From assembly GCA_003194525.1 (NCBI GenBank), contig NBIV01000010.1:186001-250000 (forward strand): 64,000 bases of DNA. The letters are read 5' to 3'. The notes under the pieces were generated by a model, which did no database searches, was not told the origin of the DNA, and worked only from the letters and a program-made list of their open reading frames with translations. Below, piece after piece: positions 20,755 to 45,350 of this stretch; position 1 is the first letter of the stretch; every line of letters starts with the position of its first letter. This DNA comes from Gracilariopsis chorda (Eukaryota; Rhodophyta; Florideophyceae; Gracilariales; Gracilariaceae). A program made the position numbers and the translations under genes.

Positions 20755-23700
20755 ATGGACATCAAGATCGAAGAATTTCCTTCCGTGGCCCAAACCGGTG
20801 AGGTTGATATCCACGATCCAGTCAAAATGAAGGCCAACGAAGGAGAAGGCAAAGTGGACACTGCAGACTATCATGGATACGAACCGCTATCGCCCAATGA
20901 CTATCCGTATGACGAAGATGTTATGGAGGATTTTACGAAAGGCAAAGATGAAGTTAATCCGAATATGCTTCGAGATAAGTCGCAGTCGTCAAAGACTATA
21001 ATCATCTTCATTTCCATCTTTTCGGTCGCTCTGATTGCGATGCTTGTATGGCAGGTCCTGATTGCGAAATGCCTTGTTACAGAACTGTGTGAGGCGAATG
21101 ACAAAAGCTCTGGTGTTGCCTCTAAGTACCTTTTTAAAACCTTCACGTTCAGAATTCCTACGGCTCTTGTATGGCTTGGTCTACTCGCGGGCACCCTCGG
21201 TATGCTTGTGGCTGTTGTGCTAGCTTTCTTCTCCATTAAGAGCTCGGTGGGGTCTGCACGGATGGTTGAGCTTGCGACGATGCTGAGGAAGGCTTCAAAT
21301 TTATTTCTTGGTTTCCAAGTTCTTGCGTTTTTCTTTCCGTCCGTTCTCTTCTTTGTGCTGTATGGGGTTGCTGTCAACTGGGAAACCGCTGGGTCGTACG
21401 GCATTGGAGCGCTCTTGACCATTGTTGTATGCCTGATATCGAAATCCCTGATCTGCCGCGGAGGTCTTCGTTCGGCGGCTGCGTCGAACCAAGGAGTGTT
21501 TCAAGGGCTTAAGCTTTCTTATCGAATTGCATCAGTGATTTCCCTGGCGATTCTAAGCACAAGCCTGCTTGGGGTATCGTCGGTATACTTAATGTTCAAT
21601 GATATAAGGGCTCTGACAGGATTAGTAGCTGGGACGTCGATAACTACGTTGTTCTTACGCCTGTCTGGGCTTAGTTTCGCCCTGTCACCTGATTTAACGG
21701 AAGAAAACGTAAGAAGGAACAAGGAGTCTCAAGGTAGCTCTTCAACTATTGCAAAATTGGTAGTGTCTAGTGTCCGAAGCTCATGCAATACGGGGACGGA
21801 CTGGTTCGAATCTGTAGCTGCATCCGTCGTTGCGGCCGCAATTTTGGGTTCAAGCCTTCCATTTTTCTATCGCGACTCGTTTGCTATGTGCGTCTACAAT
21901 CATTTGAACATTGATCAGGCATGTGGTCCGTTTGGCTATCCTCAAGCTTTGTCCTACGCAGTATACATCTGCAGAAGTGACAGTCTTTATTTGACCTACC
22001 CGAACTTGAAGACATGGGGATCGAACACGGCTTTCGTTGCGATACCATTTCTTCTGACAGCCGCGGGTCTCGTGGTTTCCATCATATGCACCTTGTCTGT
22101 CAAACTGGACGATTCGCAGCCTAAGAACCGGGAGGCTCGGATCAAGAAATCGCGGCTGGGATTTGCTCAGAATGCTCTTGTCGGATGTGGAGTACTGATC
22201 ATTTGCTATGCTGCAATTTGCTTCGGGATGTTTGGTCCAAACTCTACGTTCCAGAGCCAGAAGGGCCTGAGCGGAAAGACGAATCTGCAGCGCATGGTTT
22301 TGAGCTCGACCAAAGACCGTTGCATCACAAGGTCACTCAATCCTGGGGATTCTGAGGCTCCATTTCCTGTCCCAAGTGGGGGGAAAATGACCACCGATAA
22401 GTATCGCCCGATCGCTGCTTCAGGGCGTGGCTTAGGAGCTGCGTCTTCCACATCATGGAAGCTTTTTTTATGCTGTGTGATTGGCATGATCCTAGGCATT
22501 GTGATGAGCGGAGTTTGTGGGTTGTACTTCACATCAGTGAGCTTTAGGCCAACGATACGCGTACGGAAGGTCTCAAAGTACGGTACAAGCGCAATGGTCC
22601 TTCAAGGGCTGGGAAACGGAGTTCTGTCCAGTGTGGTAGCGGGGATCTTAATTTTCGCTGCAGTCTTGGCTTCGTTTGAGTTGTACGATGCGTACGGAGT
22701 GGGAGTTATGACAGTGGCGTATATAAGCCTGTCCGGCATGTTCAGCGCTCTTGTGACTCTCGGTGTAGTGGGGGACCATGCACACGGCATTGCTCACGTG
22801 TCCTCACTTCATCGAGCACACAGGCATTCAAAACAGGTGAAGCAGATAGCGGCAATTGCCTCGACTGGTGAGCAGTTTTCAGATGGTGCCTCTGTGCTCG
22901 TAAGCATAGTTCTCATTCTCACAACCTTGCAACAGGCTGGCCTCCAGCTTTCGCCAAGAGAGCTTGTAGGCGGACCAGAGCAGCCACCGCTCAGACTCAT
23001 CTCTACGATCGGAATTCCGCTGACAGACTCTCTCATGATCTGTGGGGTGCTGCTAGGAAGCTGCCTGCCCCTGGTGGTCTCTGGAATGTTGTGCCTTGGT
23101 GTTGGCCATGGCTCACAGCTAGTCGGGCGGAAGAGCGACATCGACTCCGTTCAAAGTGCTGGATACACAGCGCTTTTACAAAGCACTCTGCCAACCTTGG
23201 TAACACTGGTTTCTCCCTTTGCAGTGGGGTTCGGATTCGGCCATCGCGCCCTTATTGCTATGTCTTTGGCGTCAGTTGGTGTGAGCTTTGCAGTTGGAAG
23301 CGCTCTGCGGAACATGGGACTATGCATCATGGAAGCCAGACGGAGCGTGGATAGGAAACATAATCAATCCACAAGGAGCGCTGAATCCCTCGCTAGGTCA
23401 TTGACAAACGTTGTCGGACCAGCAATGCGATCCGTTAGCAAGTCAGTAACTGCTGTTTCGCTTGTCTCTGCTCCGATGATGCGTCCAGATAGTAGCCAAA
23501 TATGGGTCGGAGGACTTATCCTCGGTATTGCTGTTCTTTTCGGATGCGCTTTCGCTCATTGGAAGCACGGCCACAATCAACGCATGGTACCCAACTCCGA
23601 CACAACCGAGCCACAGTCTCATGCCCCACCCAAGCGCGTAAGCCCGTTCTTCATGGAGTCACCCACCTTTGATCCGTCTTCCGTGATGCCAGGAAGCCAA

Positions 23701-23895
23701 ATGGCCGAAGCGCTGAAAGCATTTGGCTCGCCGAGAATGCCTGTGAGTCCCCGTGTGCTGCCGGGTTTGTCTCGTAGATCACATCCGGAATTCGTTTCTG
23801 TAGAACTAGAACCACTAGTTTCTCCTCGCGTGGGTAGTCCTTCTGTCACCTCACAAAGCGTACTCCCAGACACCAAGGGGAGATCTATGTCATAA
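20755..23895 (+). CDS. Divergent H+-pyrophosphatase-like membrane protein, probable pseudoenzyme
   Basis: A 1,046-residue polytopic membrane protein (the open frame begins at 20560; ATG 20755, MDIKIEEFPSVAQ, is taken as start because it opens the soluble N-terminus). About 15-16 hydrophobic segments follow the order of membrane-bound pyrophosphatases, which use pyrophosphate to pump H+ or Na+ across vacuolar-type membranes. By-eye anchors are YGVGVMTVAYISLSGMFSAL for YGIAVAALGMLS, VVGDHAHGIAHV for SDNAGGIAEM, IASTGEQFSDGASVLVS for AAGNTTAAIGKGFAIGS, and GVLLGSCLPLVVSGM for GLIVGAMLPYWFSAM. The catalytic blocks are degraded: DVGADLVGKVE reads DLTEENVRRNK (residue about 305), DNVGDNVGD has no Asp (about 340), and GDTIGDPLKD is lost (about 885). 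The usual length is about 750-800; the extra parts are an acidic N-terminus, longer loops and a C-tail with many Ser-Pro sites, possibly phosphorylated. The frame has no stops, so it is probably expressed. Family call fairly sure; loss of activity inferred. Confidence 0.72.
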   Translation: MDIKIEEFPSVAQTGEVDIHDPVKMKANEGEGKVDTADYHGYEPLSPNDYPYDEDVMEDFTKGKDEVNPNMLRDKSQSSKTIIIFISIFSVALIAMLVWQVLIAKCLVTELCEANDKSSGVASKYLFKTFTFRIPTALVWLGLLAGTLGMLVAVVLAFFSIKSSVGSARMVELATMLRKASNLFLGFQVLAFFFPSVLFFVLYGVAVNWETAGSYGIGALLTIVVCLISKSLICRGGLRSAAASNQGVFQGLKLSYRIASVISLAILSTSLLGVSSVYLMFNDIRALTGLVAGTSITTLFLRLSGLSFALSPDLTEENVRRNKESQGSSSTIAKLVVSSVRSSCNTGTDWFESVAASVVAAAILGSSLPFFYRDSFAMCVYNHLNIDQACGPFGYPQALSYAVYICRSDSLYLTYPNLKTWGSNTAFVAIPFLLTAAGLVVSIICTLSVKLDDSQPKNREARIKKSRLGFAQNALVGCGVLIICYAAICFGMFGPNSTFQSQKGLSGKTNLQRMVLSSTKDRCITRSLNPGDSEAPFPVPSGGKMTTDKYRPIAASGRGLGAASSTSWKLFLCCVIGMILGIVMSGVCGLYFTSVSFRPTIRVRKVSKYGTSAMVLQGLGNGVLSSVVAGILIFAAVLASFELYDAYGVGVMTVAYISLSGMFSALVTLGVVGDHAHGIAHVSSLHRAHRHSKQVKQIAAIASTGEQFSDGASVLVSIVLILTTLQQAGLQLSPRELVGGPEQPPLRLISTIGIPLTDSLMICGVLLGSCLPLVVSGMLCLGVGHGSQLVGRKSDIDSVQSAGYTALLQSTLPTLVTLVSPFAVGFGFGHRALIAMSLASVGVSFAVGSALRNMGLCIMEARRSVDRKHNQSTRSAESLARSLTNVVGPAMRSVSKSVTAVSLVSAPMMRPDSSQIWVGGLILGIAVLFGCAFAHWKHGHNQRMVPNSDTTEPQSHAPPKRVSPFFMESPTFDPSSVMPGSQMAEALKAFGSPRMPVSPRVLPGLSRRSHPEFVSVELEPLVSPRVGSPSVTSQSVLPDTKGRSMS

Positions 23896-24152: not shown

Positions 24153-25583
24153 TCACGCAACACCAGCACTAGAATTGATACTGCGATAACGTTCTGTTTG
24201 GTATCCGGCCCTCTCTTGCTCAGCGTCATTCATTGACTTCTCTAAACTGGAGCTTCCATTCATTACGCGTGTGCAGTACTTCAATCGAATCCCAACAAAA
24301 TCCGTTATAGCTCCCATCCAAAGAGCTACATGGGAAAACCCAGACCTAATAAACAACATGGATTTACCCTTCGACAAAAGGTATACGTCAACGTAAGTAT
24401 TCATGAAGTCACTCACCTTGCTTGGCGATTGACTTCGTCCGACCCTATTCATATGAACAGCTTGCCAATTACTCTGATACACTTTTGCACTTGGTCTAAG
24501 GCGGTTCACCTCCGTCTTAAATAGCGTCCTGAAGTGGTCCGTATCCGACGAGATGAAGAAGTGGTGCGGGTGCAGCATTCTGCGTTGATCAGCCATCCTG
24601 ACTGCCATTTGGGCCATGCATGTCGCCAATGACTCAGGAGTGAGGCCTTGGTTTTTCAAATTGAAGCGAGCCTCTGTTTCGTTAAAGCCGTACCCAACAC
24701 GAGCATGTACGGATATATATGCTGGCATCTCGTTCCTCCAAAGCAAGTTTTGATCAGGACTGAAGAGTGTGCTCAACGGCCATACTAGGTTATCTGTGTT
24801 TTCCTGACCGGGCAGCAAGGAGCGAAGCTCTGGGGACGGACAGAATAGGGCTTTTAAAATGAAAGGTATCACCTCCTCCCGAGTTGGACTGAAGCCTGAG
24901 CTCTGAGGCAGCTTCTTAGAAATTTCTAGCTGAGGATAAAGGCGAGGTATTATGAGAAACAGTTCCCAATCTAGAACGGTTTGGCTTTCATCCACGAGAG
25001 TCGGAGTATCACTAAGAGCCGTGTCTAGCTTGTCAAAATAAATGCTCTTGCGGAGCCACTGAATATGTTCATAACTGGACAACTCAGGGAAGAGGTAACG
25101 ATCATAAGTGAAGTTGTACCCGTTTGGACTTGTTAGCACCATAGAAAGCGGAAATGGGCGCTCTACATCGATGAAAAACATTCTCTTCGAGATCACGGCA
25201 ATTAGGTAACTATGGAGTAGACCTCGAATGACATCTCCAACTCCGTAGTTTCTCCTCATGCTCCTGTACACCAGCTTTGGAATTGTTTGCGCATGTGTGG
25301 CGTTCTCTTCACAGATATGAAGCTGTTGTCTATGCCAGTCGATGTAGTCGCTTGTTATGGCACGCAGTAACTGGTTCATGTGTTGCTTGTATACTTCAGG
25401 GTTGGGTTTTCCAGAAGCGACCGAGTTGACGGTGACACGCTCAAAATCGAAATATACTGGGGCCGAACGGGCATGGCGTATTCGGACGCGAACGAGGAAC
25501 GGAAAGAACACAAATGCAAGAAGAAAAACGGGCAAACGTCTAAGGATGACACTTACCGAAGGGCGGCGGGAGGCGCGCTTCAT
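24153..25583 (-). CDS. Fucosyltransferase-like type II membrane glycosyltransferase
   Basis: 476 residues. A basic N-tail is followed by a membrane anchor (residues about 15-32) and a lumenal domain, the layout of Golgi transferases. Signature positions of the GT-B fucosyltransferase superfamily (GT23/GT37/GT65/GT68) are visible: GVGDVIRG (114-121), equivalent to the GxGDRxxG loop; SVHARVG (291-297), equivalent to the HxRxGD GDP-fucose contact with the Asp missing; and DVYLLSKGKSMLFIRSGFS (399-417), the D-x-LLS...S.S motif. Several N-glycosylation sequons (NAT, NFT, NET, NGS, NSS) support lumenal exposure. It probably transfers fucose or a related sugar to cell-wall or secreted glycans. The acceptor cannot be told. 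The first ATG is used, just before the anchor. Confidence 0.7.
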   Translation of the reverse strand: MKRASRRPSVSVILRRLPVFLLAFVFFPFLVRVRIRHARSAPVYFDFERVTVNSVASGKPNPEVYKQHMNQLLRAITSDYIDWHRQQLHICEENATHAQTIPKLVYRSMRRNYGVGDVIRGLLHSYLIAVISKRMFFIDVERPFPLSMVLTSPNGYNFTYDRYLFPELSSYEHIQWLRKSIYFDKLDTALSDTPTLVDESQTVLDWELFLIIPRLYPQLEISKKLPQSSGFSPTREEVIPFILKALFCPSPELRSLLPGQENTDNLVWPLSTLFSPDQNLLWRNEMPAYISVHARVGYGFNETEARFNLKNQGLTPESLATCMAQMAVRMADQRRMLHPHHFFISSDTDHFRTLFKTEVNRLRPSAKVYQSNWQAVHMNRVGRSQSPSKVSDFMNTYVDVYLLSKGKSMLFIRSGFSHVALWMGAITDFVGIRLKYCTRVMNGSSSLEKSMNDAEQERAGYQTERYRSINSSAGVA

Positions 25584-28001: not shown

Positions 28002-28458
28002 GATGCGTCAGCGTTGGATAGTGAAGCAGTCGTTTTCGGATTCCTCCTCCCTTTCCTAAAACTTGTAGATAACAAAAGTTCACGCCGGAAGGTAATTCTC
28101 CAAAAAGTCCAATCTATCTACACGAAGATGAATCAAGAATCACTGCGGCAACCCGTCCTACTAATCGTACATCTGTCGGTCGTCATTAAGCGATTCACAC
28201 TTGGTGCGGATCAACCTTTCAAGATCGCAGCAAGACACCTAAGATGGGTGACCCATCCAGCTACTTCGAGAGATGCAGTATCCCTTTGACGGCTACTTCG
28301 GATACTGCACGGATACTCAATACGGCTACCAGCCGTAACAGTGAAGGGTCTTGCATCGCAGCGTTGAAGCTAGGGATCAAAGCACCCACGACAGCACGCA
28401 AGGTCGCATTCCGCCTTTGAGTGTCTTCCGTATCACCTACATCACATCCCCTTTCGGA
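28002..28458. promoter_or_regulatory. Shared intergenic region of the uL22m/ARP4 divergent pair
   Basis: 457 bp separate the two start codons, so promoters for both genes must lie here (inference from arrangement). No TATA box of canonical form or known operator was identified. Confidence 0.45.
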
Positions 28459-29811
28459 ATGTATCAGGTCGAAGGAACGGTTCCTAGCCTCGTCGTCGAT
28501 GTTGGCTCCCACACCGTCAAGGCCGGCACTGCCGGCGAAGACCTCCCTCATGTTCTTATTCCATCTGCACTTGCGTGTGAGCACGAGTCCGAGCCACTAG
28601 AGAACGAAGCCCTCAAGAAGGCAATCAAATCGCCACGCGCAGGACATAATGCATTAGCGATACGCCGCGACAATGTGGAAATCCAAAGCGCTTTCAGTCC
28701 TGACGGACTGATAGAGAATTGGAACCTCTTTGAAACTCTATTGTCCCATACGCTATACAACGAGCTTCAAGCTCCCACGCGTGAAAACGCGTTGCTCTTC
28801 GGTGAACCAAACCATAATGGGAGAAAGGCGCGAGAAAGAATAGTCGAACTGATTTTCGAGAAGTTCGAAGTGCCCGCGTTGTATTTAGCTCGTTCAGCCG
28901 TGCTCTCTGCATATGCGAATGGTAAGACAACGGGCCTTGTTCTTGACGTAGGGCACTCTGGTACCAGCGCCGTTCCCGTAGAAGACGGTGCTGTTGTTAA
29001 GGGAAAAGCAATTCGAACCGCAATTGGTGGTCGTACACTTAATGCCGCTCTCGATACTCTTCTGGCCAGTGCCAACAAAGCGCTTCGTCCAATTTGGTCG
29101 TACAAGCGAACTATAACACGAATTGATGGCGTTGATGAGGACAATCTCATGCGACAATCTCAAGTTGAAGAACTGCCATTTCCGAAAACTACACGCTCCT
29201 TCTGGGAATTCTCTCGAACGCAGTTGTTGGAGGAGGTGAAGGCCTCCATCTGTGTCGTTCATGAAAATCCCTCCGTAGATCTGAAATCCTTGCCCGTAGT
29301 GCATGATTCATATGAACTTCCTGATGGAAACACAATTGAGATGAACGTGGAACGGTTTTCGGTTGCAGAACAAACCATATTTGGAAGGTTACCACACGTA
29401 ATTATGGAGACTAATACAGATGCACGGTTGTCCTATGTTAATCAATTCGTAAACGGTTCAAGACAGAGCACTGGAAATGAAAAGTCTGATGAATCGATTG
29501 GGCTACATGGACTCGTAGTTGACGCTATAAGAAGGTGTCCGGAAACAATACACCGTGACATGTACGCGGGTGTTTGTCTTACGGGCGGTACTTCGGACAT
29601 GCACGGTTTATTTGAACGGCTTAGTTATGGTTTGCAAGAAACGTACCACAAAGTGCGAGTGCTCGCAGCTACTGGGAGTCACGAACGGAAGTATTGTGCG
29701 TGGACTGGTGGAAGCATCCTTGCTACGTTTTCAGAGTTCCAGAAAATGTGGTTTTCGAAAGTTGAGTATGATGAGAACGGGTCTTCGTTTGTACATCGCA
29801 AGTGCCAATGA
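28459..29811 (+). CDS. ARP4: Actin-related protein 4 (nuclear ARP, NuA4/SWR1/INO80 type)
   Basis: 450 residues. The start MYQVEGTVPSLVVDVGSHTV, the phosphate-1 loop DVGSHTVKAGTAGED and the end WTGGSILATFSEFQKMWFSK followed by DENGSSFVHRKCQ are diagnostic of the ARP4/BAF53 group rather than conventional actin. Phosphate-2 (LVLDVGHSGTSAVPV) and the adenosine loop (CLTGGTSDMHGLFERL) are present. ARP4 binds ATP without known polymerisation and is a core subunit of chromatin remodelling and histone acetyltransferase complexes in the nucleus. The open frame extends 36 codons upstream without an ATG, so ATG 28459 is chosen. It has no introns. An insert of about 20 residues (SRQSTGNEKSDES) lies before the last third. 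Convergent with ARL8. Confidence 0.9.
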   Translation: MYQVEGTVPSLVVDVGSHTVKAGTAGEDLPHVLIPSALACEHESEPLENEALKKAIKSPRAGHNALAIRRDNVEIQSAFSPDGLIENWNLFETLLSHTLYNELQAPTRENALLFGEPNHNGRKARERIVELIFEKFEVPALYLARSAVLSAYANGKTTGLVLDVGHSGTSAVPVEDGAVVKGKAIRTAIGGRTLNAALDTLLASANKALRPIWSYKRTITRIDGVDEDNLMRQSQVEELPFPKTTRSFWEFSRTQLLEEVKASICVVHENPSVDLKSLPVVHDSYELPDGNTIEMNVERFSVAEQTIFGRLPHVIMETNTDARLSYVNQFVNGSRQSTGNEKSDESIGLHGLVVDAIRRCPETIHRDMYAGVCLTGGTSDMHGLFERLSYGLQETYHKVRVLAATGSHERKYCAWTGGSILATFSEFQKMWFSKVEYDENGSSFVHRKCQ

Positions 29812-31028: not shown

Positions 31029-31459
31029 GACGAAAGCGGCTACGACGAAAATCTGAGGAAGAACCTTCGGCGTCTGCTCGACACGGTTCCGCAGAGCACT
31101 TGCTGATGCGCAGGGCAAGTATCTTACGGATGCGTGGGAAGTGTGGAGTACTGCTGACTTGTCAAGCGGGACTGTACAGCATCCAATTCGTAAAGACGCA
31201 AGGTCAGCGCCCGTGAACGTCATTCCATCATTGAACCAAAGCAGCCAATCAATGAAGCCCAAGTGGTCACCACGTGCGCTCAGCTGCACCCGCACGGCGT
31301 GCCCCAAAAGGTTCCGCTGAATGCATCTATCTACAGTAACGTTTGTTCTCGACGACCTTTTTCACTCAAGTCTTCCAAGTCTGGAGCTGCCTTCGCCTCG
31401 GCCCAATTCGCCCTTCTTCCATTCTCACTTTTCCTGTAGCACGCCCTTCTACTTCCGTC
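31029..31459. promoter_or_regulatory. Shared intergenic region of the ARL8/Msp1 divergent pair
   Basis: 431 bp between the two start codons. Both upstream frames are open without ATG for part of this stretch (minus to 31307, plus from 31343), so the untranslated leaders are probably in here. No specific element identified. Confidence 0.4.
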
Positions 31460-32674
31460 ATGCCGTCTGAGGAACCGACAACTGACTTCGCAGAATCTGC
31501 ACCGTCTTTCTGGGCGCTGCTTTCTCGTGAACTTCTCTCAGCCGCATTCGCAGTTTTGGGAGTTTACGTGTCTGCACGAGTCATAAAGCGCGTCATGGAC
31601 CCTAATGCGGAATCCAGAGAGCGCACACGCCAGCGACGGGAAGCAGTTCTCACTCGCCTGCTGAGAACCGGTGTTCCCAACGAAGCGCTGCGCTACATGT
31701 CTCCGGCCGAGGAGCTTTTGCTCCACGATCTCGTCTTTCCCGAAGATATTTCCGCCACCTTTGGCTCAGTTGGTGGCTTGAATTATACGAAGGAAACTCT
31801 CAAGGAGCTTATCGTCTATCCGTTATTGTATCCCGACGTGTATCAGAGTGGCCAAAGCTCACTTCTACAACCGCCAAAGGGAATCTTGCTTTACGGTCCA
31901 CCTGGAACCGGCAAAACCATGCTTGCGAAAGCCTTGGCCAAGGAATCAGGCGCCAATTTCTTGGCTCTTTCACCGAGCTCCTTACTATCCAAGTGGTTAG
32001 GTGACACAGAGCAACTGGCACGCGCAGTCTTTTCACTGGCTCGTCGCGTTCAGCCTACAATAATATTCATTGATGAGATTGACGGCCTTTTCCGGGAGAG
32101 ATCGAGTAATGAGCACGAAGCCCATAAAAATCTCAAAGCTGAGTTTATGCAACTGTGGGATGGACTTACTACGGACGATAGACTAAACCAGGTTGTCGTA
32201 CTTGGCGCAACTAACAGACCTTACGATGTCGACCCCGCCATTCTACGTCGAATGCCTCGTCCATTTGAGGTCGCCTTGCCGAATGAGGGGGAGAGAGTAG
32301 AGATTCTCTCCAAAGTTCTCAACGGAGTTGCCCTCGAAGATGACTTTGACTTTCATTGCGTAGCGCGTGTCACAGATGGCTATTCTGGTTCGGACTTGAA
32401 AGAGCTTTGCCGCGCAGCCATGATGCATCCAATTCGAGAGGGTGTTAGAGGAGCTGCCAGAGAGAGAGCATCTTTTGGTGGCAGCACAGGGCAAAAGAAA
32501 TTGCGCCCCTTGACGCTGAAAGACGTCCTCCAAGCTCGAAAGGAAGTCAGCCGTACTGAGCAGGAAAGCGCCAACTACCACGCAAAGACTGTCAGAGATT
32601 CCATGTCTGGCGATGATAACCAAATGGATCTGCTCGTGCGACTCTTACAGGCTTATGGAACAAGGACAGTCTGA
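31460..32674 (+). CDS. MSP1: Msp1/ATAD1 AAA ATPase of the mitochondrial outer membrane
   Basis: 404 residues from the first ATG of the frame. Msp1/ATAD1 extracts mislocalised tail-anchored proteins from the mitochondrial outer membrane and peroxisomes. An N-terminal membrane anchor (about residues 17-42, LLSRELLSAAFAVLGVYVSA) is followed by a linker and one AAA module: Walker A GPPGTGKT, pore loop SKWLGDTEQLA, Walker B IIFIDEIDGLF, sensor GATNRPYDVD, Arg fingers RRMPRPFEVALP, and sensor 2 region GYSGSDLKELCR. RRMP-x-x-F is typical of Msp1 rather than spastin or katanin. Typical length is 350-400, so the gene is complete and has no intron. Confidence 0.9.
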   Translation: MPSEEPTTDFAESAPSFWALLSRELLSAAFAVLGVYVSARVIKRVMDPNAESRERTRQRREAVLTRLLRTGVPNEALRYMSPAEELLLHDLVFPEDISATFGSVGGLNYTKETLKELIVYPLLYPDVYQSGQSSLLQPPKGILLYGPPGTGKTMLAKALAKESGANFLALSPSSLLSKWLGDTEQLARAVFSLARRVQPTIIFIDEIDGLFRERSSNEHEAHKNLKAEFMQLWDGLTTDDRLNQVVVLGATNRPYDVDPAILRRMPRPFEVALPNEGERVEILSKVLNGVALEDDFDFHCVARVTDGYSGSDLKELCRAAMMHPIREGVRGAARERASFGGSTGQKKLRPLTLKDVLQARKEVSRTEQESANYHAKTVRDSMSGDDNQMDLLVRLLQAYGTRTV

Positions 32675-33694: not shown

Positions 33695-35551
33695 TCAGGA
33701 CTTTGCCTTATCCCGCTTCAAATTCCGAGCGTTGCCCGACTTCTCAGGCATACGCATGGCCTTCAAAGATAAGCGGAGTGCAACCGCCAAGAACTGAGCG
33801 ACGGCGAAGGACTCTACCACAGAAAGGCGGGGAAAATCCCAATCATTTCCTCCACGACTAAGGTCGGTACATCTCCACCCCAAGGGAGTACGACTGACGC
33901 TGCCAGACGCCGAGAAACTTGTGAACGTTTTAGTGTACGGATTATCAAAAGAACCGTACGAAATTGCTTTCGAACTGAGCGGCGGACACCGAACTTCTCT
34001 AGGACCTGGGTCCGCCACAAAATGCTGATAGAGAATTATCTCCAAGACTGGTAAAAGCACTGGCGCGGTCCAGCTGATACCACCATACTTCCAATTTGAG
34101 AGCAATGTTTCGGGTTTAGGGAACCGATAAGGAAAAAAAGGGAATATCACTAGTCTTAGAACCTCAAACGCAATCTTCGAAAAGAGTACATTCGCATCAA
34201 TGCTGAGAGACCTGTGTCGACGGAGGCATTCCGCCCTGTTCATGGAGTTTCTGCCACACTGAAACGTATAAAGTGGTTGTCGCGAAACATGAATCGAGTT
34301 CTCCTGCATATCGAAAAGGGCTGCCTGTTCTTCTCCACCATCCCTTCGGCTTGTTTCGCCAGTCTCCTTTTTAAGCCACTCGTACAGAGTACTTGTATGA
34401 TTCACACTCTGCGACCCTCGAAACATGAACATAGCAGAGTCTGGTTTCAAACCACCCAAGTCTGAGAAAATCACATTTCTGTTCCTGAATGAAAACGAGG
34501 GATCCTTGTCCAAAATCAGATCTCGATCAATATATATAAGTTTCTCATACTTGGTGTTCTTCAACAACCAGATTCCAGTTAGCACTTTCAGCCAATTGAG
34601 CCTAACAGATCTACTTTCTCTGCTGACGAATGGAACTCGGAAATTCACGATGTCACATGTTGTGCGAAAGCGAATGTTTCTCACTTTTTTGAAGCGGTTG
34701 CATGTGTAAATGACACACTGGCTACTACCTCGGCGTTCAAAGGCTCTTGAAAAGTTATGCAATGCGAATCCAGCTACTCTCGTGGTAGCACCTTGGCCTA
34801 TCTCTTCGACATCAAGAGCGTATCTCGTGTCTGTCTTTGTGGATCTCGTGAATAGCCAGACTGATAACACAACCAGAGAGAAAAATACTAACGGAGTTCC
34901 GCGACGCCTCATGAGCGGTACACTACAAAGCGCAGCCAACAGGGGAAGGTAGTCCCAGTTGTTATTCTTTGTACTTTTCGTTCGTTGGAAGAGAAAGTTT
35001 CCCTGCGATAGCTCCCAAGATTTACCGTGACCCGTTACGACGGCCTTTCCATGGCGGACATCGACGGAACAGAATCCACCGCACAAACTCCATAACATTT
35101 CTCGATTTACAACGGTTGTTACATCACCAGGGCCTTCTTGAACGTTTTCAATAAGACTGTCCTGACAGATGTACTTGACACAAAGAAAAGCATTTGGAAA
35201 GGAAACGGCAACCGACTTCTTTTCTGTCGCGAGAAGTGTTGTGCAGAATTCCATGTTATCTCTTCGTTCAAGACCTAGGCTGTCGAGCTCAGTATATGAC
35301 TTCCCAAGCAATGTCAACGAATGGAAATCGCCTCCTGGGTTGGCGAAGGATGCTACTGAGGGATCACATTTTCGACCATGGTAGCAAACTCCCAAAGAAA
35401 TGCTCCCCAAGAAAAGAACCAGAGACAACGAGAACCACCTTCTGCTCATGGCATCGCTTTTGTTTTTCTTTCTGGAGGCGGGGTTTCTGTTCCGGACATC
35501 GTACAGAGTCCCAATTTGATCGAGTATACTGTTTCGACGAACAGCTGACAT
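33695..35551 (-). CDS. Membrane glycosyltransferase with DxD motif and Cys-rich N-terminal domain
   Basis: 618 residues from the first ATG; an alternative ATG at 35449 (MSRRWFSLSLVLFLG) would start directly at the first hydrophobic segment. Residues (first-ATG numbering): basic tail 1-38, signal or anchor about 39-55, Cys-rich domain about 56-190 (pairs such as CVKYIC and CGGFC), one or two membrane segments about 200-236, then a GT-A-like domain 255-460 with YIDRD (340-344) as the DxD metal and nucleotide-sugar site, DSAMFMFRGS, and GGEEQAAL. This resembles nucleotide-diphospho-sugar transferases of the Golgi. The tail (about 490-618) has more hydrophobic stretches. The donor and acceptor cannot be told. 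The two-domain layout is unfamiliar to me. Confidence 0.55.
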   Translation of the reverse strand: MSAVRRNSILDQIGTLYDVRNRNPASRKKNKSDAMSRRWFSLSLVLFLGSISLGVCYHGRKCDPSVASFANPGGDFHSLTLLGKSYTELDSLGLERRDNMEFCTTLLATEKKSVAVSFPNAFLCVKYICQDSLIENVQEGPGDVTTVVNREMLWSLCGGFCSVDVRHGKAVVTGHGKSWELSQGNFLFQRTKSTKNNNWDYLPLLAALCSVPLMRRRGTPLVFFSLVVLSVWLFTRSTKTDTRYALDVEEIGQGATTRVAGFALHNFSRAFERRGSSQCVIYTCNRFKKVRNIRFRTTCDIVNFRVPFVSRESRSVRLNWLKVLTGIWLLKNTKYEKLIYIDRDLILDKDPSFSFRNRNVIFSDLGGLKPDSAMFMFRGSQSVNHTSTLYEWLKKETGETSRRDGGEEQAALFDMQENSIHVSRQPLYTFQCGRNSMNRAECLRRHRSLSIDANVLFSKIAFEVLRLVIFPFFPYRFPKPETLLSNWKYGGISWTAPVLLPVLEIILYQHFVADPGPREVRCPPLSSKAISYGSFDNPYTKTFTSFSASGSVSRTPLGWRCTDLSRGGNDWDFPRLSVVESFAVAQFLAVALRLSLKAMRMPEKSGNARNLKRDKAKS

Positions 35552-37274: not shown

Positions 37275-37973
37275 TCAGCGCTTTCTAACAAATTCTGCAA
37301 TTTGCCCACGTGCTGCAAACGCGTAGGATATAGCTGCTAGAGTGAGGGCACATCTTATTGCACCGCTCAAGACGTAATCACCAAGCTGTTCCATGGAAAC
37401 CCATTCTATACTGTCGATCACTTCGGCTTCATCTTTCGAATCTGTGACTTTTTCTTGGGGATCTACTAAAACCGCAAACACTGGTATATCAGTCATCGCA
37501 ATTGCCGTATTGAAGTTGCACCAGCCCAGTTGGCAAACTTTTCTGGTACCTATGCCAAGTTCTTCCCGCACTTCCCGTGCTGCGGCGTCACAGTGAGTTT
37601 CGTCACGCTCTGGAAAACCTCGTGGTAGCTCGATGGAGTAAAAGCCATGTGACGATTTCAAAGGATTGTTAAACGGTACTGATCCGGGAACAGTTGAAGG
37701 TATAGCTCGCCAATGACGAATGAGAGCGATTCGGTTTTGGTCATCTACGGGCAAAGTGATCGCGCCAGTTGGCTCTGCGATGGCGACAAGGTCATAACGC
37801 GGTTGCCGAGAAGCGTCGTTTACAACGACGTGATAGAAACGACTGAACGGGGAGTTATCGACTAGGAGATCAGTGTTTTGATTGAGACCAGAGCGAGTAA
37901 CATTCGGTTGGAAGTCCGGATTCTTTCCTTTCACGTCAGAAAAGAAGGCAAGATGCTGTGGGGGAGTTGTCAT
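37275..37973 (-). CDS. Nudix hydrolase, ADP-ribose pyrophosphatase-like
   Basis: 232 residues. The Nudix box at 119-141 matches GX5EX7REUXEEXGU exactly (G119, E125, R133, E134, E137, E138, G140). Before it, residues 60-115 carry the strand and loop pattern of ADP-ribose/NUDT5-like enzymes (AITLPVDDQNRIALIRHWR, then FYSIELPRGF with E115-L-P-R-G). Such enzymes hydrolyse nucleoside diphosphates linked to another moiety, clearing ADP-ribose or damaged nucleotides. ELPRG and the C-terminal EWVSMEQLGDYVLSG agree with this subgroup. No targeting signal is obvious. Single exon, complete length. The DIRS-type element begins within about 0.5 kb upstream. Confidence 0.85.
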   Translation of the reverse strand: MTTPPQHLAFFSDVKGKNPDFQPNVTRSGLNQNTDLLVDNSPFSRFYHVVVNDASRQPRYDLVAIAEPTGAITLPVDDQNRIALIRHWRAIPSTVPGSVPFNNPLKSSHGFYSIELPRGFPERDETHCDAAAREVREELGIGTRKVCQLGWCNFNTAIAMTDIPVFAVLVDPQEKVTDSKDEAEVIDSIEWVSMEQLGDYVLSGAIRCALTLAAISYAFAARGQIAEFVRKR

Positions 37974-41276: not shown

Positions 41277-44232
41277 ATGTTCAACCCATCAGAGAATAAG
41301 AGCCACTTTGCCATCAAAGAAGGATCCACACAGACTATCGCAACGCCATTCATCCATTCCTTTCAGAAATCCTGTCTCACCTCAATTCAAAAGCGAACAA
41401 GCCCTCTCCTCATTGCAGCACCCTCCCCTCAATCAGACCTACCCAGAAGCATGCCACCTCTCTCCGGAAACCACGACTTTGACCAAATCAACGCATCTTT
41501 CGACTCGGACAACCTTCTTCCCCCGAACGAGCGCGGCGAATTTGCCTACATCCAGCCCAACCTCCTTGATCTTCCAGACCAATCTGTTCCTGCCCAACGA
41601 TACCCTTGCGAACGAGACCTTCCCGATGAATCAAGAGAGCTTTTTGCATCCCTATTTAACAAGTCCCTTGTTCTCCCGCTCAAGAAAGCACTAGTATCAA
41701 ACCAACATGCCAAACCCCGCCTATGCTGCAAGCAGAAATCCTACCCCCTACTCCTCCATCGCATGGAAAAATGTGGTCTCCTGTCCTGGTCGCTTGCGTC
41801 AAATGAAACGGCGCACTCGAAGCAGCTCTCAGACTTCCTCACTATGACTCTCTTCGCCGTACCCAAAAACCAGTCCCGGCAACGCCTCATCAGCTGGCCG
41901 CGCGTACACAACCAATTCCTGCCCAGCCCCCCGCATACCCCGCTACCAACGCCAGATCTATTCAAGACTATACGTCAGACATCTGTTCCGCTTGCTGTGG
42001 TGCAATGCCCCAAAGGGGAAAAACACCGAAAGACGTTCGGGATCTTCCTCTCACGAGGTGAACCCAGTTGGGTAGAGCCCTCCCAGAAGTGTCACGGCGA
42101 AGCCGGTTTGTAAGACCAGGGACACCTGTCGCGACTTGCGCAGGGAGGTGAAGGCGAAGAATCGGTATCCGCGTGAGAGGGGTGTGATCCTCAGTAGAGG
42201 TATGTTTCCACGTAAGTGGGGGCGTGTGAGCGGGTGCACACAGGAGGGCCACGGATAGCGGGATGTACTACCCTGAAAGGGGGAAAGGAGGAGATTGAAG
42301 GGAAAGGAGGAAGAGTGGGTGAGGCTGAGTCGCGAGAGCGACGAACGAATATGGCAATGCCTGTGGACAGGACTCCCTATACAGGGCGAAACACTAATGT
42401 TATTGGAACAAATATACTCCCAAGGATGGGCCTCTTTAGATGTGCAAGGGGGTTAGATGTCCCGTGGTTTACGGCGTTTCCCTCCAAGGAAGAGTAGAGC
42501 ATGCACGCAAGCGGTCACAACTAGAGCCAATTCCGCAGGTTGGGGTCCCTTGTTGGGAAAGGTTTACTGGTGCGACGACAGTGCGCCGTCGCACTAAGTA
42601 CTAGCTTCCCAGAAATGGGTATGAAAATAATAAATAAAATCAACTAAAATACTCCACATTTCGTGGCAACATCCACTACTGTGGCCAACCGCCAATTGAC
42701 CCAAAACCGTGTCCCACGTGTCTACACCCACCATTGTGGGGCGTAGTTCATATGCACACTACACAACCGATAATATCGGGAAAACGATCAAGTACCAGGA
42801 ATCCCTCCCTGAGGGCGTTGCACTACACTTGCATCCATCTACCTCGACATCGCCAATATGTTCCATACAATCTGTCTCCCAGACTGGCTCGCTAACCTCT
42901 TCCCACTCCCAACCATCCAATTCGGAAACCTACCGGGCCCTCTCCAAAGACGCATCCAAGCCACGCTCTCGCATCGACCCAAGCAGAAAGACATTGTCCG
43001 CCCTCTCCAGCGTACGCTCCCAATGGGCTTCAATTGGCCGTGCACATTGCACATCACCTCGTTGCATCTGCCATCCGAGAATCCTACGCGCCCTGTCAAC
43101 TACGTCAACCAGAACCGACCATTTATCCGGAGCATCTCCCCACCCTTTTCAGGTCACACACAGGACACATACTGTCAGAGCGATACGCGCTGTTGCTCCA
43201 CATAATCGATGACATAAACGTCGTCTTCGACGCATGGGACGACGCCGCTATAGATACCTTTCACTCGAAATTGCTCTCAGCACTGGATCGCCGCAGTCTA
43301 CCCGTCAAATGGTCAAAGCCCTCTGCCCTCGCGAAACCAGAGCGCACGCAAATCAAATTCATTGGCTGGACATGGAACTTCCTTCTCGGCTGCATTGCCC
43401 CCCCCCGGTACTCAAGCTCTCCAATACCATAAGCCGTCTGAAGCTCGCATCCGCCGCCCTCCGGAACGCAAGCAACCTCCCTCTTCAGGCTCATGCCTCC
43501 CAATCCCTCCAACGCATCGTTGGAAAATCAACCTGGCTTACGCTCGCCAATCGGCCTCTGCTCTCTATTCTTTTCAACACTTTCCACCTCCTCTCGCACG
43601 ACTCAACCCCAAACAGCCTGCTTGCCAGCACAGCCTCCGAGCTCGACCACCTGGCAAACCTCCTGCCCCTATCCTGATTCGCTACTCTTACGACCTGGTC
43701 ATCCCTCCTAATTGACTTCGACGCCTCCATGCAGAAAGGCGCAGTCGTCTACACCTTAGTGGATCCAGAATTAGTTGAAGGACTGTGGAGCTCAGGCGCA
43801 CTCACCGCCAACGGCTCCTCAACCGGAAACTAAGCCCCGCCCGCCGACAGCGGCACGTCTCAGGAGCAAATGCAACCGCCCTCCACCCCTCTTAGAAGCC
43901 CGGCCCTCGAGAACGTCGTCCAGTCGCTGCATTGGAAAACGGCTTTCGTGCGCGAATGGCAACGCACTGAACACATTAACATATTGAAAGGAACAACCGC
44001 CGTTCTCGCAGCCAGATGGGCAGTATCCCGCCAAATTACTGAAAAGCGAGTGATTTTCCTTTCTGACTCTGCCGCCGTCGTTGGAGTGCTTAACAAAGGC
44101 CGGTCATCAAGCCCGCAACTGAACCGCATCGCTCGAAACTTTGGTGCAGCATGTCTAGCCGCAGATCTGCACGCAACGCTGGCCTACATTCACACGTCAA
44201 CAAACCCGGCCGACGAACCAACCAGACAGTAA
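41277..44232 (+). pseudogene. DIRS-type reverse transcriptase-RNase H, split and frameshifted
   Basis: The frame from ATG 41277 reaches 41995 (TIRQTSVPLA). After removing the LTR and one CTTGC it continues SIYLDIANMFHTICLPDW, which is RT motif A. One missing base near 43042 (LPMGFNW to AVHIAHHLV) and a shift at a C9 run near 43398 change frame. HIIDDINVVF is the YxDD box, and KFIGWTWNF follows. RNase H is seen at 43700-44232: LLIDFDAS, LKGTTAVLAARWAV, FLSDSAAVVGVLNKGRS, and NPADEPTRQ at the end. RT copies RNA to DNA; here the gene is dead but complete in outline. Confidence 0.8.
41996..42827 (+). mobile_element. Family A solo LTR, copy 3 (832 bp)
   Basis: Starts TGTGGTGCAATGCCC and ends GGGCGTTGCACTACA, flanked by an exact CTTGC duplication (41991-41995, 42828-42832). 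Same length and nearly the same sequence as copy 2, including hairpin, TAAGTA and AATAAA. Different target duplications show two separate insertions, not a pair of LTRs around one element. Confidence 0.85.
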
Positions 44233-45350
44233 ACCCATACCTCCAATTGAAGCGAAGGACGTCATTGGCACTATCACCCGCAGCAGCCCTCCTGGAACGC
44301 ATGATACACGAACAAGACAATAGACCCAACCCAAATGAAGCAGTTGTCGTAAATAGACTACCGACTACCAGGCTGTTCCTCGCGGAGGCGCCCCCAAGAA
44401 TACCCCTCCAAGCCAGCAGTTTCTTCTCAATGCACCCCCTAATCGCACGCACGATCAAACCCAAGACCTTGCAATCATACTGCAAAGCGCTAGAAAAATT
44501 TACAGCAACACTCACGACAAGCTGTCGCGACCTGCACCACCTCAATCACCTAATCGACATGTACATTAACAAAACCTTCGAAGAGGACCCGATGGCCACC
44601 CGCAAACAAGAGATGACAAACCTGCTCTGTGCGCTCTACATCGTGGATGCTCGTACGAAAACTGGCCTTCCTCTGTCCCACAGAAGTATCAAGGGCTGGG
44701 AAAAATCACATAATGCCCAGCCATCCACACCATTTACCCCAGAAATCTTGCACGCCTTCGTAATGAAGCTCCTTCTTGACCGCAGAGCCGAAGCGGCCGT
44801 ATGTTTGGCAATATCATGGGCCGGCTACCTCAGAGTAAGTGAAGCTCTTGCGCGTCGCGCGGAGAACGTTCCGTTACCTGGAGATCCTCGCGTTGCTGCA
44901 TATGGAAACGAAGTTGCTGGAATCGCTATCTTGGATGCAAAGACTGGGCCTCTGCAATTTGTTTCTATTAAGGACAGGAATTGTATTACTCTTCTGACAT
45001 GTTATATGAAGAAGCTAAGCAATATCGGAGACACACTCTTTACCATCAAATACTCTACTTACGCAGCACAGCTGAAGAAAGTTACGTCTTTTTTTAACGT
45101 GACACATTTGAATTTTACTACACACTCTGCCCGAATAGACGAAGCACTGCATGGCTTCATGCGTGGTAGAAAGGCAGAGGATATCGCATTGAAAGGCAGG
45201 TGGAACTCGCTCACGTCGTTGCGACATTCTTTGACAACCGGCCGAGCATGGCTCATGAAAATGAATATAACGGACCAACAAACTGCCAAAATCAAGCAGT
45301 ACAGTTCCAATATGGTTCAAACAACCGAACCCTATCGCAGCTGTGTATAG
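44151..45350 (+). CDS. Tyrosine recombinase of the DIRS-type element, nucleophile changed to Ser
   Basis: A 399-codon open frame overlapping the RNase H end by about 80 bp, as usual in this group. The N-terminal core-binding part (TLQSYCKALEKFTATL) precedes the catalytic domain: first Arg in GYLRVSEAL (about 44830), HSAR at about 45121-45132, and GRW in IALKGRWNS. The site of the nucleophilic tyrosine, expected in SLRxYLxxGRA, reads SLRHSLTTGRA, with codon TCT at 45228-45230; one base change from TAT would explain it. The frame is otherwise intact. A recombinase inserts the circular DNA copy without target duplication. This copy should be unable to form the covalent DNA link. Confidence 0.8.
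   Translation: MSSRRSARNAGLHSHVNKPGRRTNQTVNPYLQLKRRTSLALSPAAALLERMIHEQDNRPNPNEAVVVNRLPTTRLFLAEAPPRIPLQASSFFSMHPLIARTIKPKTLQSYCKALEKFTATLTTSCRDLHHLNHLIDMYINKTFEEDPMATRKQEMTNLLCALYIVDARTKTGLPLSHRSIKGWEKSHNAQPSTPFTPEILHAFVMKLLLDRRAEAAVCLAISWAGYLRVSEALARRAENVPLPGDPRVAAYGNEVAGIAILDAKTGPLQFVSIKDRNCITLLTCYMKKLSNIGDTLFTIKYSTYAAQLKKVTSFFNVTHLNFTTHSARIDEALHGFMRGRKAEDIALKGRWNSLTSLRHSLTTGRAWLMKMNITDQQTAKIKQYSSNMVQTTEPYRSCV

Follow-up and report, generated by a model that had tools for sequence, protein, structure and literature searches.

A membrane-pyrophosphatase homologue of the red alga Gracilariopsis chorda that appears to have lost catalysis while keeping its frame and most of its ion gate

The 64-kb stretch of Gracilariopsis chorda contig NBIV01000010.1 analysed here (the window, 64,000 nucleotides) contains, at 20755-23895, an uninterrupted gene for a homologue of the pyrophosphate (PPi)-driven pumps called membrane pyrophosphatases (M-PPases). 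The first-pass annotation described it as an M-PPase homologue in which catalysis is lost and the frame is kept, and this overall observation is confirmed. Its product, designated type 1, has replaced most residues of the Mg/PPi site and retains most of the published ion gate; the loss of catalysis seems well supported by the alignments. Judged from their sequences, two diverged, dead lineages of M-PPase are present in this genome, type 1 at one locus and type 2 at two. The pump fold probably now serves a different purpose, and we tentatively propose that type 1 is a pump-derived, PPi-independent membrane protein, most likely a regulated proton or cation pathway or a sensor.

An intact frame in the M-PPase family

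20755..23895, forward strand: coding sequence (CDS) of type 1, a 1,046-aa protein with the M-PPase fold and no catalytic residues (frame, Pfam and alignment)
21151..23505, forward strand: M-PPase fold core, aa 133-917 (Pfam and predicted structure)

The stop-to-stop frame comprises 1,135 codons, with the first in-frame ATG at 20755 and the stop codon at 23893-23895, and the full-length frame that had been claimed, 1,046 codons without an internal stop, is indeed intact. The claimed homology was likewise upheld when the Pfam check was run: type 1 scored 179.8 bits against H_PPase (PF03030; cut-off 29.7) over profile positions 2-620 of 645, which is nearly the whole family profile, and by exceeding the curated cut-off it belongs to the superfamily by descent. 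The nearest solved structures by sequence are TmPPase (E 7.4e-18) and then VrPPase. Among the NCBIfam equivalog models, type 1 matched 12 pyrophosphatase families and reached none of the 12 cut-offs (best 167 vs 546 bits); two canonical M-PPases used as controls each passed at least one model. The predicted structure, for which canonical relatives were supplied to the model, has the M-PPase fold. Type 1 thus resembles M-PPases (PF03030; TmPPase 4av3, PaPPase 8b37, VrPPase 4a01) in its 16-helix core, its order of segments and most of its gate, but differs from them in that the Mg/PPi-site residues are mostly replaced, in an extra helix at each end, and in its lumenal cysteine loops and long tails predicted to be cytosolic.

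Loss of the active site

The active site was compared in an alignment of type 1, its two type-2 paralogues and 87 canonical bacterial M-PPases, of which 80 are genomic, 5 plasmid-borne and 2 from viral contigs. This canonical set comprises all 87 eligible loci and is mostly alphaproteobacterial (83 of the 87 have K12.46); it was fetched by patterns drawn from blocks 1 and 2 and their surroundings, so that conservation there is partly by choice. Active-site positions, 21 in all, were placed from family motifs, except those for which a source is given. Residue numbering is based on helices, as in PMC10897367, where D6.43 and D16.39 are described as the Asp pair by which the attacking water is held; K12.50 and D15.61 are named in PMC5150537.

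21682..21717, forward strand: degenerate block 1 (aa 310-321; alignment); K5.58 replaced by Leu, D5.61 kept (D313), D5.65 replaced by E317 and K5.69 by R321
21751..21780, forward strand: degenerate block 2 (aa 333-342; alignment); D6.35 replaced by K334, D6.39 by S338 and D6.43 by S342
23380..23409, forward strand: degenerate block 3 (aa 876-885; alignment), without Asp or Lys; D16.31 replaced by E877, D16.35 by R881, K16.38 by T884 and D16.39 by N885

Type 1 keeps 2 of the 21 positions (D5.61 and D11.57) and so lacks nearly all of the conserved Asp, Asn and Lys residues of the Mg-PPi site expected of a functional M-PPase; the type-2 proteins keep 2 and 1. D11.50, K12.50 and D15.61 are also replaced. 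More broadly, type 1 keeps 59 of the 174 canonical columns in which conservation across the set is 97% or higher (15 of 189 were set aside as gaps). The claim that all three catalytic blocks are lost holds for blocks 2 and 3 and was too strong for block 1, the least lost of the three, where D313 persists and E317 and R321 occupy the places of D5.65 and K5.69. PPi hydrolysis by type 1 would be very unlikely, because most of the Mg/PPi-site residues, including D6.43 and D16.39, have been replaced. That the protein might still be a PPi-using pump or pyrophosphatase with a rebuilt site could be argued from the retention of D5.61 and D11.57 and from the presence of E, R and E in place of D5.65, K5.69 and D16.31; however, D6.35, D6.39, D6.43, D11.50, K12.50, D15.61, D16.35, K16.38 and D16.39 are all replaced, the water-holding D6.43 and D16.39 (PMC10897367) by Ser and Asn, and we regard this explanation as highly improbable.

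Apparent absence of a canonical enzyme

In the 91.3-Mb assembly (1,081 contigs), a family search gave 9 matches, of which the best was the type-1 gene and none was a canonical M-PPase; a canonical M-PPase protein used as query gave 5 matches, all within the type-1 and type-2 genes, and an exact motif search gave none. As the V-ATPase a subunit was recovered whole (959 bits), such a search does find long membrane proteins. A canonical M-PPase is thus apparently absent from this genome, a gap in the assembly being possible. The absence is unusual, because H+-PPase genes have been reported in all 27 plants and algae studied (PMC7053079), and it is relevant to the organism's handling of pyrophosphate; the soluble pyrophosphatase family is represented by two matches. 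The suggestion that type 1 is a partner of the active enzyme consequently goes unsupported by all three kinds of search. M-PPases are dimers (PMC10897367) and a dead partner is conceivable, but with no canonical enzyme in the assembly, subject to the same possible gap, it seems a very distant prospect that type 1 is a subunit regulating an active M-PPase of its own host.

The excerpted text of PMC7053079 assigns only type II H+-PPases to the two red algae that it studied and mentions no type-1-like protein; their members of the same Pfam family, CMO102C of Cyanidioschyzon and Gasu_15740, Gasu_15900 and Gasu_28190 of Galdieria, were compared by description only. In viral contigs, 35 pattern matches yielded no confirmed relative of type 1 or type 2. 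Of the 11 records returned by a plasmid search, 4 bear the annotation sodium-translocating pyrophosphatase and 7 have none under the match; the five records examined all carry the catalytic DNVGDN motif. No catalytically dead M-PPase was described in the searched excerpts of the open-licence literature.

Retention of most of the ion gate

The gate residues of M-PPases have been listed as S5.43, D6.50, E6.53/57, S6.54, D/N16.46 and K16.50 (PMC10897367).

21637..21660, forward strand: helix 5, Ser295 (S5.43, gate) and Arg302 (R5.50), both kept (alignments)
21799..21813, forward strand: helix 6 gate, Asp349 (6.50), Glu352 (6.53) and Ser353 (6.54), kept (alignments)
23428..23442, forward strand: helix 16 gate, N16.46 changed to Arg892, Lys896 (16.50) kept (alignments)

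Five of the six published positions are kept in type 1 if Ser at 6.54 is taken as kept (the canonical set has Thr there in 83 proteins and Ser in 4), the sixth, 16.46, being Arg. Retention at the gate is higher than at the active site (Fisher p 0.0014) and than over the 174 columns of 97% or higher conservation (p 0.019). When R5.50 is added and identity to the reference is demanded, type 1 keeps 5/7 positions and each type-2 protein 2/7. A second alignment, with 41 canonical proteins, placed the same gate residues alike.

Type-2 paralogues and constraint

The two type-2 paralogues, L002 on contig C5 and L003 on contig C10, are also full-length and catalytically dead. They are 28% identical to type 1 over ~950 residues. 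In common with it they have one added helix at the N-terminus and one at the C-terminus, loop insertions following helices 6 and 8, six cysteines and the motifs YxGYxPxxxND and VSPFF. Unlike type 1, they have lost most of the gate, keeping two of the seven positions, R5.50 among them, and they stand farther from the canonical enzymes (72 and 74 vs 147 bits).

For the type-2 pair, the NG86 method gave a nonsynonymous divergence (dN) of 0.064, a synonymous divergence (dS) of 0.287 and a ratio of 0.22, and two other methods gave 0.23 and 0.30; along the gene, the NG86 ratio rises to ~0.42 in the last stretch. A natural control for decay is offered by a 7-kb transposon that has captured the 3' half of a type-2 gene; the captured part starts at base 1458 of the L002 CDS and runs to ~190 bases beyond the stop.

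Contigs C41, C148, C35, C77, C1 and C117: transposon copies L110-L115, ~7.0 kb each in five of the six

Five of these copies are long and one is internally deleted. Against the L002 gene the captured fragments have dN/dS values of 0.64-1.39, and among themselves 0.48-1.42 (five of the six, the deleted copy being left out); stops occur in 3/5. The inverted ends lie near GAGCAAGTC.ACCAGTG, with a 26-base inverted repeat measured in L113; a frame of the element matches Plant_tran/DDE_Tnp_4, and we read the element as Harbinger-like. By eye, one frame beside the captured fragment resembles the start of an FtsH-type protease, with no Pfam match.

These ratios bear on whether type 1 could be a recently inactivated copy drifting to loss. 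The low number of conserved canonical columns kept (59/174) and the transposon pieces in the window (elsewhere in the 64 kb, Pfam finds one transposase match and one retrotransposon integrase match) would fit such drift, as would the fact that dS between the type-1 gene and type 2 gave no value. However, the 1,046 codons contain no stop despite a nonsynonymous divergence of ~0.96 from type 2, the extra motifs are common to both types, and decay elsewhere in this genome looks different, as the captured copies illustrate. Drift towards loss, the alternative of a simply decaying copy, is thus disfavoured and appears improbable, given the intact frame at deep divergence and the two dead paralogues with the same extra parts, themselves held at dN/dS 0.22-0.30. 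Constraint on the family, measured as dN/dS on the type-2 pair, appears well supported. The type-1 gene has no close copy in the assembly; we infer that it is constrained too, because its frame is intact at such divergence.

Added parts and topology

20755..20994, forward strand: N-terminal tail (aa 1-80), acidic, predicted cytosolic (low predicted local distance difference test score, pLDDT; membrane side deduced)
20869..20901, forward strand: Y-x-GYEPLSPND motif (aa 39-49), common to the type-2 paralogues as YxGYQPVDVND (alignment)
20995..21051, forward strand: additional N-terminal transmembrane helix (aa 81-99), which three aligned bacterial M-PPases lack (alignment, hydropathy)
21052..21174, forward strand: loop predicted to be lumenal, containing Cys106 and Cys112, which are common to type 2 (alignment, hydropathy)
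21868..22032, forward strand: inserted loop between helices 6 and 7 (aa 372-426) with Cys379, Cys390 and Cys406, predicted lumenal
22234..22461, forward strand: inserted loop between helices 8 and 9 (aa 494-569) with Cys523, predicted lumenal
23500..23556, forward strand: extra C-terminal transmembrane helix (aa 916-934; alignment, hydropathy)
23557..23892, forward strand: C-terminal tail (aa 935-1046) with six Ser/Thr-Pro sites; VSPFF at aa 962-966 common to type 2

The acidic N-terminus noted earlier is real (20 D/E vs 9 K/R within 80 aa), and so is the richness of the tail in Ser-Pro sites (six Ser/Thr-Pro within 112 aa). The six cysteines of the added parts (106, 112, 379, 390, 406 and 523) are all Cys in both type-2 proteins (6/6), against 1/15 of the other type-1 cysteines (p 0.00013). 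M-PPases have lumenal N- and C-termini and a cytosolic loop 5-6; with this family topology applied to type 1, all six conserved cysteines would be lumenal or extracellular and would probably form disulfides. Counted after alignment, the helices would number 18, the family's 16 plus one per end, and both tails would then be cytosolic. Plain hydropathy gives 17 helices for type 1, with helix 16 below threshold, 20 for each type-2 protein and 16 for each of two canonical proteins.

Possible functions

In the mechanism that we favour, the fuel site of a pump fold would have disappeared, most of the gate would have survived in one lineage (type 1), and cytosolic tails and a conserved lumenal domain of cysteines would have been added. 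With S5.43, R5.50, D6.50, E6.53, S6.54 and K16.50, type 1 may still let protons or cations cross the membrane; this path might now open independently of PPi, under the control of the tails (through phosphorylation or partners), of the lumenal domain or of pH. Type 2, with most of its gate lost, might be a receptor, a scaffold or a dimer partner. In its fullest form, namely that in red algae an M-PPase pump became a PPi-independent, tail- or redox-regulated proton or cation channel or transporter (type 1), possibly with a gate-less type-2 subunit and with the enzyme lost, the proposal is rather unlikely to hold in every part.

Several points weigh against a transport role. The gate pattern was noticed before its test and comes from a single sequence, and if Ser353 at 6.54 is counted as lost, gate retention falls to 4/6 (p 0.011). 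The ion site could be blocked by the Arg that replaces N16.46, the sixth of the gate residues, and because K12.50, D6.43 and D16.39 are gone, no energised cytosolic entry path seems evident. The selection figures belong to the type-2 pair only, dS of the type-1 gene having given no value; the hydropathy counts of 17 and 20 depart from 18; and the fold model had canonical relatives to draw on, whereas the core by itself gave a prediction of no confidence (pLDDT 41).

A receptor, scaffold or trafficking protein, in which the fold is a framework for the lumenal Cys domain and the cytosolic tails and no ions flow, is a possibility of some substance, if a doubtful one. The most telling parts shared by type 1 and type 2 lie outside the fold (the six Cys, YxGYxPxxxND and VSPFF), the segment YEPL or YQPV inside YxGYxPxxxND resembling the sorting motif YxxPhi; type 2 keeps 2/7 gate positions, and N16.46 is Arg in type 1. 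Such a role nevertheless leaves the retention of S5.43, D6.50, E6.53, S6.54 and K16.50 in type 1 unexplained. Overall, the first-pass interpretation stands as regards homology, the fold, the lost catalysis and constraint on the family, and is unsupported as regards the enzyme partner; the channel or transporter role, to which the kept gate lends support, is one that we infer.

Type 1 would be a pseudo-enzyme of the M-PPase family, an idea on which searches of the open-licence literature returned no paper. M-PPases are primary pumps, and their energy coupling is still argued, with pumping placed before or after hydrolysis (PMC10897367); a homologue from nature in which most of the gate survives and the active site is erased could be used to ask what the gate does alone.

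Neighbouring genes and other observations

24153-25583, reverse strand: frame of 476 aa, no Pfam match at E 0.01
28351-29811: actin-family protein
31343-32674: AAA ATPase
33695-35551, reverse strand: frame of 618 aa, no Pfam match at E 0.01
37275-37973: NUDIX protein
44151-45350, forward strand: frame of 399 aa, no Pfam match at E 0.01

Several long genes of the genome are single unspliced frames. The genome also has 15 light-harvesting family matches, several of which are weak, incomplete or broken by stops, together with 7 phycobilisome linker matches. Taken together these features fit a red alga; the light-harvesting and linker matches led to the rejection of an oomycete origin, which had been considered first, and a glaucophyte would be a less likely alternative. 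A dynein heavy-chain match (G000:C117:65417-66634), unexpected for a red alga, lies in an unspliced frame of 4,599 codons.
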